Source: a virus
DNA length: 25,402 nt
Strand: one strand, 5' to 3'
Virus record (IMG/VR): IMGVR_UViG_3300047480_000791
Span: 1 to 25,402 of that record
The position numbers and the translations under genes are program-made. This document shows, piece after piece, positions 3,615-15,623 of the stretch. Positions within the stretch are counted from its first letter, which is position 1. The number at the start of each line of letters is the position of its first letter. The notes under the pieces are model-generated. The model ran no database searches, had not been told where the DNA came from, and saw nothing but the letters and a program-made list of their open reading frames with translations.

Positions 3615-4765
3615 TGTACAAATCAAATGAAATTACTACAGTGCACTTGGAAGTCACAGAAAAGTGCAACGCAAGCTGTTCACAGTGTGCCAGAAATTTA
3701 AATGGCGGAGAGGTTAACCCGCAACTTCATGACGCTGAACTAAGTTTAGATGATGTTAAAACAATTTTAAAACCCGACTTTATTAAACAACTAAAGAGAT
3801 TGTATATGTGCGGTAACTACGGTGACCCTATTAGCGCACGTGACACGCTGGAGATATTTGAATATATTCGCAGTCACAATGACAAGATGCAACTTAGCTT
3901 TCACACTAATGCCAGTGCAAAAACACCTGAATGGTGGAGTAAGTTACCAGCAGCCATGGGTAAGAGTCACTATGTTGTGTTTAGCTTAGACGGTTTAGAA
4001 GATACCAATCACTTATATCGCCAAGGCACAGTATGGAAAAACATTATGCGTAATGCAGAAGCTTTTATCAAAGCTGGTGGCAGAGCTCGTTGGGATTACA
4101 TTGTATTTGGACATAACGAACATCAAGTAGAAGAAGCTAGGACACTGGCAGAAAGCATGGGCTTTGAAAAGTTCAATGTTAAAAAGTCAAATAGATTCTT
4201 TAGTAATACACGTGGCGCAGTTAAAACAGAGCATCAAGCAGGAAATCGCAAAGGCACTGCTACTACCGTTATAAGCATGCCCAAGAACCCAGAATACCAA
4301 AATTCTGCAATACAACAATTAGCCAATCTCAGCAAAGACAAAGCTAAAATAGAATTAGATCTATTAACAACAGTCAAGGAACTGGAACAGAGAAGCCTGG
4401 CACCACAAAAATATAACATGGAAAAGTATTGGGATACTGTGCCCATTAAATGTAAGGTCTCCGAAGAAAAAAGCATTTATATTACGGCAGAAGGATACTT
4501 ACAACCCTGTTGTTGGACAGCTGGTCAAATGTATGTATGGTATTGGAAGCAACGTGGTGGACAGATTTGGAATGCCATAGATCAAGCGGGGCTTGACACT
4601 TTGGATGTTAAAAATAATGACTTAGTTGATGTTATTAACGGTAAATTCATACAAGAAATTATTCCCGATAGCTGGGATAAACCCAGTTGTGCAGAGGGTA
4701 AGCTAGCTGTATGTGCCAAGACCTGTGGAACTAAATATGATGCATTTACAGAACAATTCAAATGA
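3614..4765 (+). CDS. Radical SAM protein with C-terminal SPASM-like domain (group III)
   Basis: This is a 383-aa protein. The core begins at once with HLEVTEKCNASCSQC; C18, C22 and C25 are the CX3CX2C ligands of the SAM-binding [4Fe-4S] cluster. The usual GGEP is replaced by CGNYGDP (66-72). Later blocks are FHTNAS (96-101) and FSLDGLED (123-130). The C-terminal part carries C280, C299, C300, C359, C367 and C371, with a GYLQPCCW block typical of SPASM auxiliary cluster domains. I chose ATG 3614 because TAATG joins it to the preceding stop and the core starts close behind. An in-frame ATG at 3584 adds 10 unremarkable residues. It is the only member of its group here, so it probably has a different substrate from the group I proteins. 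Confidence 0.88.
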   Translation: MYKSNEITTVHLEVTEKCNASCSQCARNLNGGEVNPQLHDAELSLDDVKTILKPDFIKQLKRLYMCGNYGDPISARDTLEIFEYIRSHNDKMQLSFHTNASAKTPEWWSKLPAAMGKSHYVVFSLDGLEDTNHLYRQGTVWKNIMRNAEAFIKAGGRARWDYIVFGHNEHQVEEARTLAESMGFEKFNVKKSNRFFSNTRGAVKTEHQAGNRKGTATTVISMPKNPEYQNSAIQQLANLSKDKAKIELDLLTTVKELEQRSLAPQKYNMEKYWDTVPIKCKVSEEKSIYITAEGYLQPCCWTAGQMYVWYWKQRGGQIWNAIDQAGLDTLDVKNNDLVDVINGKFIQEIIPDSWDKPSCAEGKLAVCAKTCGTKYDAFTEQFK

Positions 4766-5514
4766 CACCCATAGAATACAATGAACTTTTAAAGACACGT
4801 AGAACAGCCAAAGTTTTCAAAGAAGAAAAATTAACGGCAGAACAGCGCAGGCTAGTAATTGACGCTGTAAATTTTGCGCCAGCCCAAAATTCCAATAGAA
4901 ATTTTATCCCACTGCTTTTAGAAAAACAAGAACACAAAGAATGGTTCCAGGATAATATATTCTTTATGGTGCCTAAATACAGTGATAAATTGGGCAAGGT
5001 CATGCCCAAAGAATATCAACTAGGCATACTCACCGCACCAGTGGTGATACTATATTTAGAAGCTAGTAAAAATTTACCGATTGTAAACCATCCCAGTCAT
5101 TTAGATCAAAATGGTTCATATATGAAAGAACAGGATGTTAATGATCTATACATACGCAATATAAATGTTGGTATGAGCATGGCTTTTGTTTCCAGCCAAG
5201 CATATATGCTGAACTTAGATGTCGGATTCCTCGGCTGTACCCGGGGAATTAGAACGGTAATGGATACACCTGAATTAAGAGATCATATGTTTGGTATTTT
5301 CAGTGAATATGGTGTTAGTAAGGAATTAGCAAATAAGCATTGTCTAGCTCCGGGATATGCGGTATGCATTGGACATGCAGAGCCCATACATAACCAGAAT
5401 CGGCGCACCACAATAGAAGAACTTGAGGGATTGCCGTACAAAGACGGTTATTATACAAATATTAAAAAACATCAGTTAAATAGTATGGAAAATATTAGAG
5501 TAATCAATGAATAA
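4762..5514 (+). CDS. Nitroreductase-family FMN oxidoreductase-like protein
   Basis: This 250-aa protein has the nitroreductase layout. RRTAKVF (13-19) corresponds to the N-terminal RRSxR-type FMN phosphate site, and APAQNSNRNFIP (39-50) to the APSGxNxQP loop. NVGMSMAFVSSQAYMLNLDVG (from res 135), followed by FLGC, is the long helix and glycine/cysteine block before the second FMN contact. APGYAVCIGHAEP (196-208) is the closing strand with the family's G-x-P. The family uses FMN and NAD(P)H for two-electron reductions, and some members oxidise azolines in peptide natural products. It sits by a 4-nt ATGA overlap between two radical SAM genes, so a redox role in the same pathway is likely but unproven. 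Confidence 0.75.
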   Translation: MTPIEYNELLKTRRTAKVFKEEKLTAEQRRLVIDAVNFAPAQNSNRNFIPLLLEKQEHKEWFQDNIFFMVPKYSDKLGKVMPKEYQLGILTAPVVILYLEASKNLPIVNHPSHLDQNGSYMKEQDVNDLYIRNINVGMSMAFVSSQAYMLNLDVGFLGCTRGIRTVMDTPELRDHMFGIFSEYGVSKELANKHCLAPGYAVCIGHAEPIHNQNRRTTIEELEGLPYKDGYYTNIKKHQLNSMENIRVINE

Positions 5515-6844
5515 AGATTTTGACAAATATAATAAGGTACCAAGCAACTTTTGTTTGGTGCCATTTTTACACAAAGCAATTGACGGCAACGGAGATATTA
5601 ATCCTTGTTGTATTGCAGATCCTCATAAAATGAGTGACGGTAAAAAAGCCAATATTAACTTCGTTGATTTTGATACTTTTATTAAATCAAAAGAAAACAA
5701 CGATTTTAAAGAAGCATTTAAACGTAATGAGCGTCCAGAAATATGCCACAGATGTTGGAAAGTAGACGACCATCAAGGCGAAAGTCATCGCAAGCGTGTA
5801 ATGACATTCTTTATGAATAAAAGTTGGGAAGGTGGCGAAACAGAATTATACAAACGATTAGAAAGTTTCTTTGCAGATGAAACAGAATGGCAGGACGTTG
5901 TTGTAGAATTGGACAAAATAAAAGAGCCCATGGATCTAGAAATAGAACCAGGAACGACATGTAATTTTAAATGTCATTTCTGTGGACCACATGCTAGTAG
6001 TAGTTGGATCAGTGATCAAAAAGAACTTTACGGAACCAGTCAGGAAGATGCCGCAAAAGCAACTAAGCTGGGGCACTGGGCTCTGGACAGTGAATTGTGG
6101 AACAGTGAAGTTATGTTCAACGGTAAAAAGTTTCACTTCATGGGCGGTGAACCAATGTTAATCAATGCACATTTTAAATTTTTAGCTAAACTAGCCGAAC
6201 GTCCAGACGCCGCACAAGTTCGCATGTCTTACAATACCAACGCTAGTACACTGCCTCCAGAAAATGTATTAAAAACAGTATATGATAAGTTTTATTATAC
6301 CAGAGTTGCATTTAGTATTGATGGTATAGGTGAAAAGTTTCATTATCAACGTTTTCCCGGAGACTGGGCACAGGCAGAAGCCAACATGGAAACCTGGGTA
6401 ACCAATGTTAAAAACATAGAAGCTAAAATCGATCCTGGCTGGAGTATCATGAATCTCCTAGACATTGCTGAATTATTTTTATGGGCAGATGGCTTCAAAC
6501 GTAAATTCAATTTAAGTGACAAGCAATTTGATTTTGACGGTCACTATTATTTTGGACCGCACTATTGCCCGCAAAGTCTAAAGCCAGAACAAAAAGAACA
6601 ATACAAAACTAAAATGTTAGCTGATTTAGAATTACTTCGTTCCAGTAATCTAACTACTAGGATGTTAGAACGTGCAGAAACAACGGTAGAGAACATGATC
6701 AATCACATGATGGCCAAGGATACTTGGAATCAAGAAACCGAAGATAAACGTAACTTCAGATTTAGAGGTCTTGATAGAATACGAAATCAGAAGCTTCCAG
6801 ACTATTTGCCAGAGGTCAATAAAATATTAGGTTTGTATGTTTGA
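5507..6844 (+). CDS. Radical SAM protein with N-terminal twitch domain (group I)
   Basis: This is a 445-aa protein. N-terminal twitch-like domain: FCLVPF (C16), NPCC (C34, C35), and C80/C83 in EICHRCW; these should hold an auxiliary Fe-S cluster. Radical SAM core: LEIEPGTTCNFKCHFC with C152, C156 and C159, then S164-x-x-W167, MGGEP (213-216 for GGEP), YNTNAS, and FSIDG with Y-x-R. The C-terminus ends in the shared LDxxR...LPEV block. Start by 8-nt overlap ATGAATAA. The downstream end is odd: the stop is overlapped by the start of a truncated radical SAM gene. The substrate cannot be read from the sequence. Confidence 0.92.
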   Translation: MNKDFDKYNKVPSNFCLVPFLHKAIDGNGDINPCCIADPHKMSDGKKANINFVDFDTFIKSKENNDFKEAFKRNERPEICHRCWKVDDHQGESHRKRVMTFFMNKSWEGGETELYKRLESFFADETEWQDVVVELDKIKEPMDLEIEPGTTCNFKCHFCGPHASSSWISDQKELYGTSQEDAAKATKLGHWALDSELWNSEVMFNGKKFHFMGGEPMLINAHFKFLAKLAERPDAAQVRMSYNTNASTLPPENVLKTVYDKFYYTRVAFSIDGIGEKFHYQRFPGDWAQAEANMETWVTNVKNIEAKIDPGWSIMNLLDIAELFLWADGFKRKFNLSDKQFDFDGHYYFGPHYCPQSLKPEQKEQYKTKMLADLELLRSSNLTTRMLERAETTVENMINHMMAKDTWNQETEDKRNFRFRGLDRIRNQKLPDYLPEVNKILGLYV

Positions 6845-6896
6845 TGTTCTAGAAAAACTTGAAATAGAAATAACAACCAAATGTACATTATATTAA
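6837..6896 (+). pseudogene. 19-codon remnant of a radical SAM gene
   Basis: An ATG at 6837 overlaps the previous stop in the same 8-nt way (ATGTTTGA) as most radical SAM genes here. It reads MFDVLEKLEIEITTKCTLY and then TAA. LEIEITTKC is a textbook start of a radical SAM core, and the stop falls exactly at the codon that should be the second Cys of CX3CX2C. The downstream sequence in this frame (Gly-Gln-Ile-Lys-stop) has no cluster motif, so this is more likely a deletion or replacement junction than a point nonsense mutation. The stop overlaps the Shine-Dalgarno of the next gene (TAAGGA). The short frame might still be translated as a leader that couples translation to that gene. Confidence 0.72.
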
Positions 6897-6899
6897 GGA
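6895..6899 (+). promoter_or_regulatory. Shine-Dalgarno AAGGA for the gene at 6908
   Basis: AAGGA lies 8 nt before the ATG at 6908 and overlaps the stop codon of the remnant frame. It is one of few clear ribosome binding sites in the run, fitting a gene whose translation no longer depends on an overlapping intact upstream gene. Confidence 0.65.
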
Positions 6900-6907
6900 C
6901 AAATTAA

Positions 6908-7261
6908 ATGAAAGAATTTGGAGACGATTTTAAATTATATGCTTATAAAAAATACGATATATGTGATTTGTCATTGAAAGTCACTGAGAATTTTGTATTG
7001 ACTTATAGATTTACGCACGATGAGCTAAAGCAAATATTTACTCATTCTTTTGATAAGGAAGGCGTTAATATAAGATTAAACTCTGGAACAAAGCTATATG
7101 CAGTTATTAAAAAGAACATAAGCGCACTGAGACTAACTATCAACACTCATGGTGGTAATTTTAACTTACGTTATGAAGTTCAAAGTTTTATAAATTTAAT
7201 AGCAGAGTACGAAAGGCAAATGAATAATCCAGTTGATTGGGATCACTATGATCCTCGATAA
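6908..7261 (+). CDS. Small protein of unknown function (117 aa)
   Basis: I do not recognise this protein. It is polar and mixed alpha/beta in pattern, with alternating strand-like stretches (FVLTYRF, NIRLNSGTKLYAVI, NFNLRYEV) and a final amphipathic helix before an acidic tail (DWDHYDPR). It has a single Cys, no signal peptide and no membrane segment. It has its own Shine-Dalgarno and follows directly on the truncated radical SAM start, so it may have arrived with the replacement that destroyed that gene. Its stop lies inside the following gene (14-nt overlap). It could be an accessory protein for the SGNH-like neighbour or simply a phage accessory gene. Confidence 0.7.
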   Translation: MKEFGDDFKLYAYKKYDICDLSLKVTENFVLTYRFTHDELKQIFTHSFDKEGVNIRLNSGTKLYAVIKKNISALRLTINTHGGNFNLRYEVQSFINLIAEYERQMNNPVDWDHYDPR

Positions 7262-8144
7262 CAAAATAATATATGTTAACGGAGATAGTTTTACAGAAGG
7301 TTGCGACACTGCCAATCATATGTTTCCTTTTCCTGTGGAGTACTTTTCGTTAAATGACGTCAACGACAACGTAAACAACGAACATGTAATTTCTGCTCAA
7401 CATAAATTTATTGAAATCAGAGAAAACCTCATTAATGAAGATAAAGCCTTTAATGATAATATTCTTAGAATAGAAAAAGAATTGCGATGGAGTACTACCC
7501 TGGGCAAAATTTTAAACCGTGATGTTATTAATATGTCATCAATGGGCGGAAGTTCTATGTTTGCCATTGCGTTTAGATCTATAGCAGATATTAATGAGTT
7601 AATAAAACGAGGTTATAAAGTCACAGATGCAATTATACAAATAACTTCTGATAGTAGATTTAGTATATTCCAGGATGTAGGTAAAGAAAAAGAACCAAGT
7701 CCATCTAGATTTGGCCAACGATATTATAAATTAAACAGTGGAAACATTTTCCATTCAGATATTAAGTTAAAAAATTTAATTAGTTCGTTTTTCGAAGCTG
7801 AACTTGCCGAGTTTAATAACTATAGATGGTTCCATGAACTGTATATGTTAACGCATACATTACAATCTATATCCCCGGGTATTAGAGTAATATTTGTGGA
7901 CAGTATTTTTTATAAGAATACAATATACGGAAAAGCCGGCAGCTTTGACGATGTGATCGACTTCGAAGTTCCAGAGTTTAATCATATCCTAGATTTTAAA
8001 AAAGAGTTTGATGATAAATTAGAATTATGCATGCTAGATCAAATTGGGCATGATGAAAAGTTAATAACAGCGGGGTTACATTTTGCGTCCGAAGTTCATG
8101 ACCGATTTGCCAAAGCTATAGCAGAAAGATACTTTAATGAATAA
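7248..8144 (+). CDS. SGNH/GDSL hydrolase-like protein
   Basis: This is a 298-aa protein. Block I is VNGDSFTEG (10-18), with Ser14 as candidate nucleophile. NMSSMGGSS (95-103) fits block II glycine, and IIQITSDSR (129-137) occupies the block III position but lacks the usual GxND Asn. The end, AGLHFASEVHDRFAKAI (275-291), fits block V with H278 (or H284) as the catalytic His; the canonical Asp three residues before it is not obvious. Known members are esterases, acetylhydrolases or acyltransferases acting on glycans and lipids. I chose ATG 7248 over the earlier TTG at 7233, because the strand IIYVNGDS then starts near the N-terminus. It could act as a sugar O-deacetylase, but divergence in blocks III and V leaves activity uncertain. 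Confidence 0.7.
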   Translation: MILDNKIIYVNGDSFTEGCDTANHMFPFPVEYFSLNDVNDNVNNEHVISAQHKFIEIRENLINEDKAFNDNILRIEKELRWSTTLGKILNRDVINMSSMGGSSMFAIAFRSIADINELIKRGYKVTDAIIQITSDSRFSIFQDVGKEKEPSPSRFGQRYYKLNSGNIFHSDIKLKNLISSFFEAELAEFNNYRWFHELYMLTHTLQSISPGIRVIFVDSIFYKNTIYGKAGSFDDVIDFEVPEFNHILDFKKEFDDKLELCMLDQIGHDEKLITAGLHFASEVHDRFAKAIAERYFNE

Positions 8145-13426: not shown

Positions 13427-14594
13427 TAATTTTTGTTACATGCCATGGCATGGTCTAGCTATTGCTGCCAACGGCGGCGTTAAACCATGCTGTCAATGGC
13501 AGGGAAACTTAGGAAAAGTCGACGAAGTTAATCTAGTAGAGCAATTTAAGTCACACCCTAAAATTGTTGCTCTTCGAACAGATTTTATCAATAACAAAAA
13601 ACCCAGCAGTTGTTCTAGTTGTTGGACTAGGGAAAGTCAAATAGGCGAAAGTAGACGCTTATGGTTTAAAGAAAAATTCATTGATTCCATACCCACAGAC
13701 TACTCGTATTCAGCTGAGTTGGATGAAATATATTGGACTCAGGCTGATATAAATCTCAGCAATGTCTGCAACTTAAAGTGTAGGATGTGTGGCAGCTGGG
13801 CTAGCAACAGTTGGTTTGAAGAAGATCTTGTACTAAGTAAAATAAATCCTGCGTTTGAAAAAGAAAGCAATCCTGCAAATCAAAAAATCAGACAACATGA
13901 ATTGGATGATCTTAGATCTCTGCTACCTTATCTTAGCAAAGTTAAACGAATTGATTTTAAGGGCGGAGAACCTATGATGGCTAAAAATCACGTCGAGTTC
14001 TTAGAAATGCTGGTCGAAGAAGGTTTACATGAAAAGTTAGTTCTACAGTATACAACCAATGGTACAATAGTTAATCCTAAAATACTAAATGTATTATCTA
14101 AATTTAAAAAGATTAGAATAATGTTTAGTATAGAAGGAACAGGTAGCCTATACAGTTACATCCGCGGTGGCAAGTATACAATTGATCAAATGGAAGAAAC
14201 TTTAGTTTTGTATAACAATTTGCCCAATGTAGAGATAGGTTTTAACGTAACTATTCAGGCTTATAATCTTTTAAATCTCAAAGAATTAAGACAACAATTA
14301 ATAACATGGGATAAAAAGTATTCCAATGTAAGTTCTAATAGTGCATTCACAACAATATGTAACAGTCCAATGTACCTAAGCCCGTTTGTATTGCCAGCGC
14401 CTCTTAGATTACTAGCAGAAGAACAGTTATCTGATATAGAAGATTTTAAGATACTAGTCAGCAATATTAAATCTGATAATATACACCGGCAACATTGGCA
14501 AACTTTTAAACATTTTACCAAAGAATTGGATCAAATGAGAGAAGAAAATATACTCAGTCTTATACCTGAATTAGAAAGTTACTGGCATGGTTAA
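13419..14594 (+). CDS. Radical SAM protein with N-terminal twitch domain (group I)
   Basis: This 391-aa protein is compact and starts with FCYMPW (C6), KPCC (C24, C25) and CSSCW (C65, C68). Core: INLSNVCNLKCRMC with C117, C121 and C124, S129-x-x-W132, KGGEP (GGEP 182-185), YTTNGT, and SIEGTGSLYSYIRGG with Glu where most paralogs have Asp. It ends with LDQMR and IPEL. The start is set by a strong Shine-Dalgarno and the ATGAATGA overlap. It ends at ATGGTTAA, which overlaps the split group II gene. Confidence 0.92.
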   Translation: MNDNFCYMPWHGLAIAANGGVKPCCQWQGNLGKVDEVNLVEQFKSHPKIVALRTDFINNKKPSSCSSCWTRESQIGESRRLWFKEKFIDSIPTDYSYSAELDEIYWTQADINLSNVCNLKCRMCGSWASNSWFEEDLVLSKINPAFEKESNPANQKIRQHELDDLRSLLPYLSKVKRIDFKGGEPMMAKNHVEFLEMLVEEGLHEKLVLQYTTNGTIVNPKILNVLSKFKKIRIMFSIEGTGSLYSYIRGGKYTIDQMEETLVLYNNLPNVEIGFNVTIQAYNLLNLKELRQQLITWDKKYSNVSSNSAFTTICNSPMYLSPFVLPAPLRLLAEEQLSDIEDFKILVSNIKSDNIHRQHWQTFKHFTKELDQMREENILSLIPELESYWHG

Positions 14595-15288
14595 ATTAGT
14601 TGCTGTAGAAGACAATTATGCTCCTAAGGACAATTGGTTGCGTATAGAATGGAATTTAGGAAAACGTTGTAATTACGATTGTAGTTACTGCGGCAGCGAC
14701 ATTCATGACAGAGAAAGTCCTCATTTAAGTTTAGAAGTAATCGAAAAAACAGTTAAACAAATTGCAGATGTTGCCAAATCACAGGGCAAGGAATGTCGTA
14801 TTAGTTTAACTGGCGGTGAGCCGTTTGCGCATCCAAAAATAATTGAGATACTTAAGACTATTAAAGATCACGGTATCAACAAAATCAGTGTTACTACCAA
14901 CGGCAGTGTGCCACTTAAAAAATATGTGGACAGTCTGCCATATATTAATTATTACATTTTTAGTTACCATTTTGAATTTGCTTATCATGACAAAATTATA
15001 AACACTATCGTAGAGTTAAATAAACTTGTTAAAGAACGTAAGAATCAAAATTTGCATACCCATTTGATGTACCTACCAGGTAAAATGGCAGAAGCAAATG
15101 AGATAATTGATATCATGAATGAAAATGATGTACACTGGGTAATAAGAAGAATCCGTCCTAGGTTAGATCCAGAGACAAAGACATGGGCGGCACCTGGATT
15201 AAGTGGTTTGAAAACTACACACGATAAATGCAAGGACGATTACTATACTCAAGAAGAACTTGATTTTATGTTGAATAAAAAGAAATGA
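14587..15288 (+). CDS. Radical SAM core protein lacking its own auxiliary domain (group II, split, part 1)
   Basis: This 233-aa protein is short for a radical SAM enzyme with an auxiliary domain. Core: EWNLGKRCNYDCSYC with C28, C32 and C35, TGGEPFAHP (GGEP 76-79), and VTTNGSV. It stops at YTQEELDFMLNKKK, which aligns with YTQSQIDYIQANRK in the middle of the fused relative at 21381. The missing C-terminal Cys domain is encoded by the next gene, which starts by ATGA overlap in the -1 frame. The two probably form a heterodimer. Alternatively they are joined by a -1 frameshift in the A-rich stretch 15277-15285, or the split is a one-base sequence error. Confidence 0.9.
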   Translation: MVKLVAVEDNYAPKDNWLRIEWNLGKRCNYDCSYCGSDIHDRESPHLSLEVIEKTVKQIADVAKSQGKECRISLTGGEPFAHPKIIEILKTIKDHGINKISVTTNGSVPLKKYVDSLPYINYYIFSYHFEFAYHDKIINTIVELNKLVKERKNQNLHTHLMYLPGKMAEANEIIDIMNENDVHWVIRRIRPRLDPETKTWAAPGLSGLKTTHDKCKDDYYTQEELDFMLNKKK

Positions 15289-15623
15289 CCAGTAAAGTAA
15301 CAAATTGGGCAAATATAGTAGTGCATTACGCAGACGGTACCAGTGAAGAAAGCAACGTCAATGATTTACTGGCCAACGAAACAAATAAGTTTAAAGGTTG
15401 GATGTGCTGGGCAGGTTTGCAAAACTTAACCATAGACAACGATGGTAATGTTTGGCGTGCTATCTGCAAGGTAGGTGGCAAATTAGGTGACATACACACT
15501 GGTTTTTCTGTGCCCACAGAACCCATAATATGCACCAAAGAAAACTGTACTTGCGCTGCCGATATACAGCTAAGTAAAGCAGATTTAAATAATATTAAAA
15601 GATTAAGGATTAGTAATGAGTGA
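15285..15623 (+). CDS. Stand-alone SPASM/twitch-like Cys domain (group II, split, part 2)
   Basis: This 112-aa protein is made almost only of the C-terminal domain of group II radical SAM enzymes. NETNKFKGW leads to C41, then DNDGNVWRAIC (C61), GGKLGD, and C83-x4-C88-x-C90. The fused relative at 21381 has C252, C273, C299, C304 and C306 with the same CX4CXC ending and the same NKFKDW lead. It has no SAM-binding core of its own, so it should work with the 14587 product and carry the auxiliary cluster. It begins at the ATG of the ATGA overlap and ends in the 8-nt overlap ATGAGTGA. Confidence 0.85.
   Translation: MTSKVTNWANIVVHYADGTSEESNVNDLLANETNKFKGWMCWAGLQNLTIDNDGNVWRAICKVGGKLGDIHTGFSVPTEPIICTKENCTCAADIQLSKADLNNIKRLRISNE
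15605..15609 (+). promoter_or_regulatory. Shine-Dalgarno AAGGA for the gene at 15616
   Basis: AAGGA lies 6 nt before the ATG at 15616, within the end of the preceding gene, and supports that start together with the 8-nt overlap. Confidence 0.55.

Follow-up and report, generated by a model that had tools for sequence, protein, structure and literature searches.

A short reading frame in a phage radical-SAM gene array as the probable scar of a deletion

The window, that is, the whole stretch of 25,402 nt analysed here (IMG/VR virus record IMGVR_UViG_3300047480_000791), comes from a freshwater T4-like phage. As the window itself is a fragment, the T4-type assignment is taken from the Gp23 major capsid protein of the relatives with the longest contigs (G004, E 1e-80; G008, E 3e-81). 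The window, G004, G006, G007 and G008 share a collinear array of about 27 genes, as does G005 over its examined part. The genes considered below lie on the plus strand. The radical-SAM protein encoded at 5507..6844 belongs to the N-twitch family NF033640, the main family of the array (263 bits, cut-off 170), and the product of the 8137 gene also exceeds this cut-off (371 bits). The genes in between are u6908 (6908..7261), encoding a protein of 117 aa, and the gene of an SGNH-hydrolase-like protein (7248..8144), which was assigned by eye, has no family match and is collinear in the relatives. The gap between the 5507 and 6908 genes (6844-6908) is +63 nt, the largest between full genes of the array; all others range from -41 to +19 nt.

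A short frame at 6837..6896 translates as MFDVLEKLEIEITTKCTLY followed by a stop. It consists of the first 19 codons of a radical-SAM core gene and a new TAA stop, as seen from its translation, comparison with orthologues and a shuffle test. The 5507 gene (stop codon at 6842-6844) runs 8 nt into this frame, from the ATG onward (6837..6844), as it does in L004, L006 and L007. This is the commonest spacing in the array, found at nine other junctions. The codon at 6882..6884 encodes Cys1 of the CxxxCxxC motif, the sole cluster cysteine kept, and the TAA at 6894-6896 sits on the Cys2 codon of all intact relatives (CTLY|CPDC). None of 20,000 shuffles reached the score of the remnant against the N-terminus of any of four orthologous cores. 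When all six frames of the window are compared with the core motif, LEIEITTKCTLY scores 56 and the second-best 12-mer, which is antisense, 35. The likeness of the remnant to a radical-SAM N-terminus is not due to chance. With Cys1 as its only cluster cysteine, the frame has no complete CxxxCxxC; the 19-aa product cannot hold a [4Fe-4S] cluster and is non-functional as an enzyme. It may be translated via the start/stop overlap without having to serve any function.

When IMG/VR was scanned with the 5507 protein, nine records contained a close relative and one a remote one. In the records other than those of the window's own virus, the gene after the 5507 homologue opens with a very similar stump (MIEPKNIELEITSKCTLYCPDCARTKD... 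in L009, MIDPVTIELEITSKCTLYCPDCARTKD... in L006) and then continues. An intact core lies directly 3' of the 5507 homologue in L004, L005/L006, L007, L008 and L009, and L002 and L003 contain 5' parts of the core, Cys2 and Cys3 included. The intact slot consists of a radical-SAM core of about 210 aa (PF04055), a separate SPASM ORF of about 108 aa (PF13186) and then the 6908 homologue. The core orthologue L006:7331-7966 matches PF04055 with E 8e-10 (39.6 bits, cut-off 29.5), and residues C15, C19 and C22 are invariant in six core orthologues. The SPASM orthologue L006:7963-8289 matches PF13186 with E 5e-8 (33.6 bits, cut-off 21.5). Both score far below the 170-bit cut-off of the N-twitch family NF033640 (30.0 bits for the lost core, 27.1 for the SPASM ORF). 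A programmed frameshift joining the core and the SPASM ORF was rejected, because their relative frame varies between lineages (L006 versus L004, L007-L009, L016 and L018). No relative turned up in prokaryote genomes scanned with the lost core.

Could the short frame be a conserved leader peptide or other regulatory short ORF of gene 6908? The 8-nt start/stop overlap is kept and the frame ends 11 nt before the next start codon, as would suit such a role. However, in all relatives beyond the window's population the full gene takes the place of the short frame, and the region contains no RNA family or terminator-like element. The short frame is thus not conserved among relatives, and a leader function is extremely improbable. 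The first-pass annotation had named a leader shared by related genomes as an observation that would speak against gene loss; among the sampled relatives, the short frame is confined to the window's own population.

The distance from the start codon of the core to that of the 6908 gene is 71 nt in the window; in six relatives it is 949-967 nt, so that the window falls short by 878-896 nt. No other part of the core or of the SPASM gene is left in the window. The 6908 family is present in eleven contigs, and in ten of these the core and the SPASM ORF precede it; the eleventh is the window's own virus. As the ten intact IMG/VR contigs include close copies of each other, they represent about six lineages. 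On the 5507 protein tree, the core is present in the outgroups L008 and G006 and in all others reaching that slot; outgroup lineages possess the SPASM ORF as well. The absence of the genes from the window is therefore a loss. Judged by its sequence, the stump itself shows that the gene was present before the event. L004 also has an intact core, and its 3614 gene product and that of the window are 95% identical. The marks of a deletion remnant are found together: a collinear neighbourhood, a homologous stump, and sister and outgroup lineages in which the gene is intact. A move of the lost gene to another place was rejected, as only paralogues of about 34% identity were seen in the window and in the examined part of the sister contig.

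Thus the 60-nt frame is very probably the scar of a deletion of about 0.88-0.90 kb in this phage lineage. The first-pass annotation had suggested that a whole radical-SAM gene once stood here and was lost between Cys1 and Cys2, and the relatives, which keep the intact gene right after the 5507 homologue, agree with this. The loss it placed at this slot has to be extended: the core is gone, and so is the stand-alone SPASM-domain ORF of the same stretch.

The same annotation described the genes at 6908 and 7248 as two unrelated genes that now follow the stump. In fact, they are the ancestral next neighbours in every relative whose contig reaches there; u6908 lies 3' of the SPASM ORF in all ten intact contigs reaching it, and forms the ancestral right flank, as the 5507 gene forms the left one. 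The u6908 protein (window 6908-7261) represents an orphan 117-aa family found only in these arrays, with no Pfam, NCBIfam or PHROG family. Searches of catalogued phages yielded nothing, whether with the DNA or with the proteins of genes 5507 and 6908. The predicted model of the 6908 protein (pLDDT 80) has a doubled beta-sheet/helix pattern; fold searches found solved structures with PUR/Whirly-like folds as weak matches only, and a single good match in an unnamed phage protein. These matches do not allow a function to be assigned.

The locus had been read as a case of loss or replacement. The loss stands, and replacement would concern at most divergent alleles of 6908 and 7248, for which the data are suggestive but not significant. 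The 6908 protein of the window is 63-68% identical to all relatives, those of G004, G005, G007 and G008 being 84-85% alike, and the 7248 allele has 40-47% identity to relatives. Recombination with a divergent phage could have brought in 6908 and 7248, with an illegitimate left joint inside the core, so that deletion and replacement would be one event. These two alleles are deep while the flanking genes 5507, 8137 and 9393 stay 88-95% identical to G004/G005, and the distance to L008 is not raised in the window (dN 0.245 versus 0.24-0.27), which points to a deep allele rather than to acceleration. On the other hand, the ordinary placement of 6908 is not rejected by a tree test (p-AU 0.112, 117 columns). 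The window also has a divergent 4762 gene, on the other side of the site, so that a mosaic of exchanges independent of the deletion would explain the data equally well. We consider such a replacement possible but somewhat unlikely. Still more doubtful is the wider proposal that deletion and divergent alleles arose in one event, that exchange ends prune the arrays, and that 6908, as a partner of the lost enzyme, changed its allele when the enzyme was lost. If true, it would mean that illegitimate ends of allele exchange between phages trim radical-SAM arrays gene by gene.

A deletion within otherwise ancestral surroundings can be followed to its junction (6888..6900). The left arm is homologous to the core as far as approximately position 6893, where the window reads TTATATT and G006 CTATATT. 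The right arm is like the stop/leader before the 6908 gene, and resembles the leader ATATTAACTAAGACAACAAATG of G004/L006. The ATATT common to both arms is compatible with short homology. Dating by synonymous change meets saturated sites in comparisons with the sampled relatives, and therefore none of these is the immediate undeleted parent. Because no relative is close enough to serve as this parent, the right breakpoint and the microhomology are inferred, and the exact base is not resolvable.

The ancestral order was the 5507 radical-SAM gene, the core (about 210 aa, CxxxCxxC), the SPASM ORF (about 108 aa), 6908 and the SGNH-like gene. Comparison with the relatives shows that the deletion took the core from Cys2 onward and the whole SPASM ORF, leaving the stump joined to the 6908 leader. 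Illegitimate recombination at a few shared bases (ATATT-like) was probably responsible. The deletion may have been tolerated as the enzyme was dispensable and 6908 retained its own start and ribosome-binding site; a candidate AAGGA Shine-Dalgarno-like stretch with its spacer was noted by eye at 6895..6907. The simplest and most likely account is a deletion at short homology, in an array whose tightly packed genes are each dispensable. In the 3614 radical-SAM gene of the window, compared with the sister contig, there is a 24-nt in-frame deletion between ACATGGA repeats (window 4405-4430; L001 4875-4925). Thus short-repeat deletions appear to occur in this population. No promoter, terminator or Rfam element beyond chance was observed at the junction.

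The junction is short and AT-rich, and the assembler might have joined contig ends of two variants across a short repeat. However, the flanks are the correct ancestral neighbours in the correct orientation, and a search of IMG/VR with the junction pattern identified one contig, 3300042260_000295, with the identical junction. Over 10,134 window bases it differs by one base and one 24-nt indel (99.8% identical DNA). It is a separate assembly record of the window's own virus population, possibly from the same site. The two records are identical in DNA around the junction, and may share site and assembler; the second record makes chance misassembly unlikely, although it is weaker than evidence from reads. 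An assembly join, the other objection foreseen in the first-pass annotation, does not fit a junction seen in a second assembly, and an artefact is very unlikely.

Other differences between lineages in the array are mostly absences of single genes. The 5507 homologue is absent in G007 and G008, where ATGAATAAATATTTTT..TTATGA remains, that is, both gene tips with the first and last few codons, in a scar of about 32 nt (L016 4020-4060 in G007, L018 4020-4060 in G008). This is a parallel deletion in a different clade. The nitroreductase-like 4762 gene is absent in G006 and L008. A tandem second SGNH-like gene (L006 9521-10465) is present in G004, G005, G007 and G008 and absent from the window and G006.

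Similar variation is known. In the flexible region of pelagimyophages, related T4-type phages differ by radical-SAM cassettes, which was read as gradual divergence and not wholesale replacement (PMC7029224). As there, regions of T4-type phages vary in radical-SAM content; here, in contrast, the direction of loss, the boundaries and the remnant can be named, and the freshwater genomes of that paper have no radical-SAM genes. The virulent Campylobacter phages CP220 and CPt10 contain 11-12 radical-SAM genes; some of these belong to an interchangeable module that is considered non-essential (PMC2853527). One CP220 protein, 30% identical to the lost core, ranks among its closest counterparts in catalogued phages. 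However, in those phages a cluster was exchanged en masse, whereas here one gene pair was cut from a collinear array. A TARA T4-like environmental virus has 12 radical-SAM genes (PMC5332604), and is likewise an environmental T4-like genome rich in these enzymes; the passage of that paper describing it mentions no deletion scar. Since radical-SAM-rich T4-type phages and cassette flux have already been described (PMC5332604, PMC2853527, PMC7029224), the scar is a well-resolved, ordinary instance of known gene flux in a phage metabolic array. It provides a base-level example of how single enzymes disappear from the tightly overlapping metabolic arrays of environmental T4-like phages without a change in the order of the other genes. 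Taken with the scar in the other clade, it marks several radical-SAM genes as individually dispensable, which is relevant to whether the array forms a single pathway or consists of separable modifications.

For two cores of the array, a separate ORF downstream encodes the SPASM-like partner, which is an uncommon arrangement (window 14587-15623, where the 15285 ORF was assigned as the partner by eye, and L006 7331-8289). Along the window (1-25402), the nearest relative shifts gene by gene among G004, G005 and G007/G008, a mosaic typical of exchanging phages.
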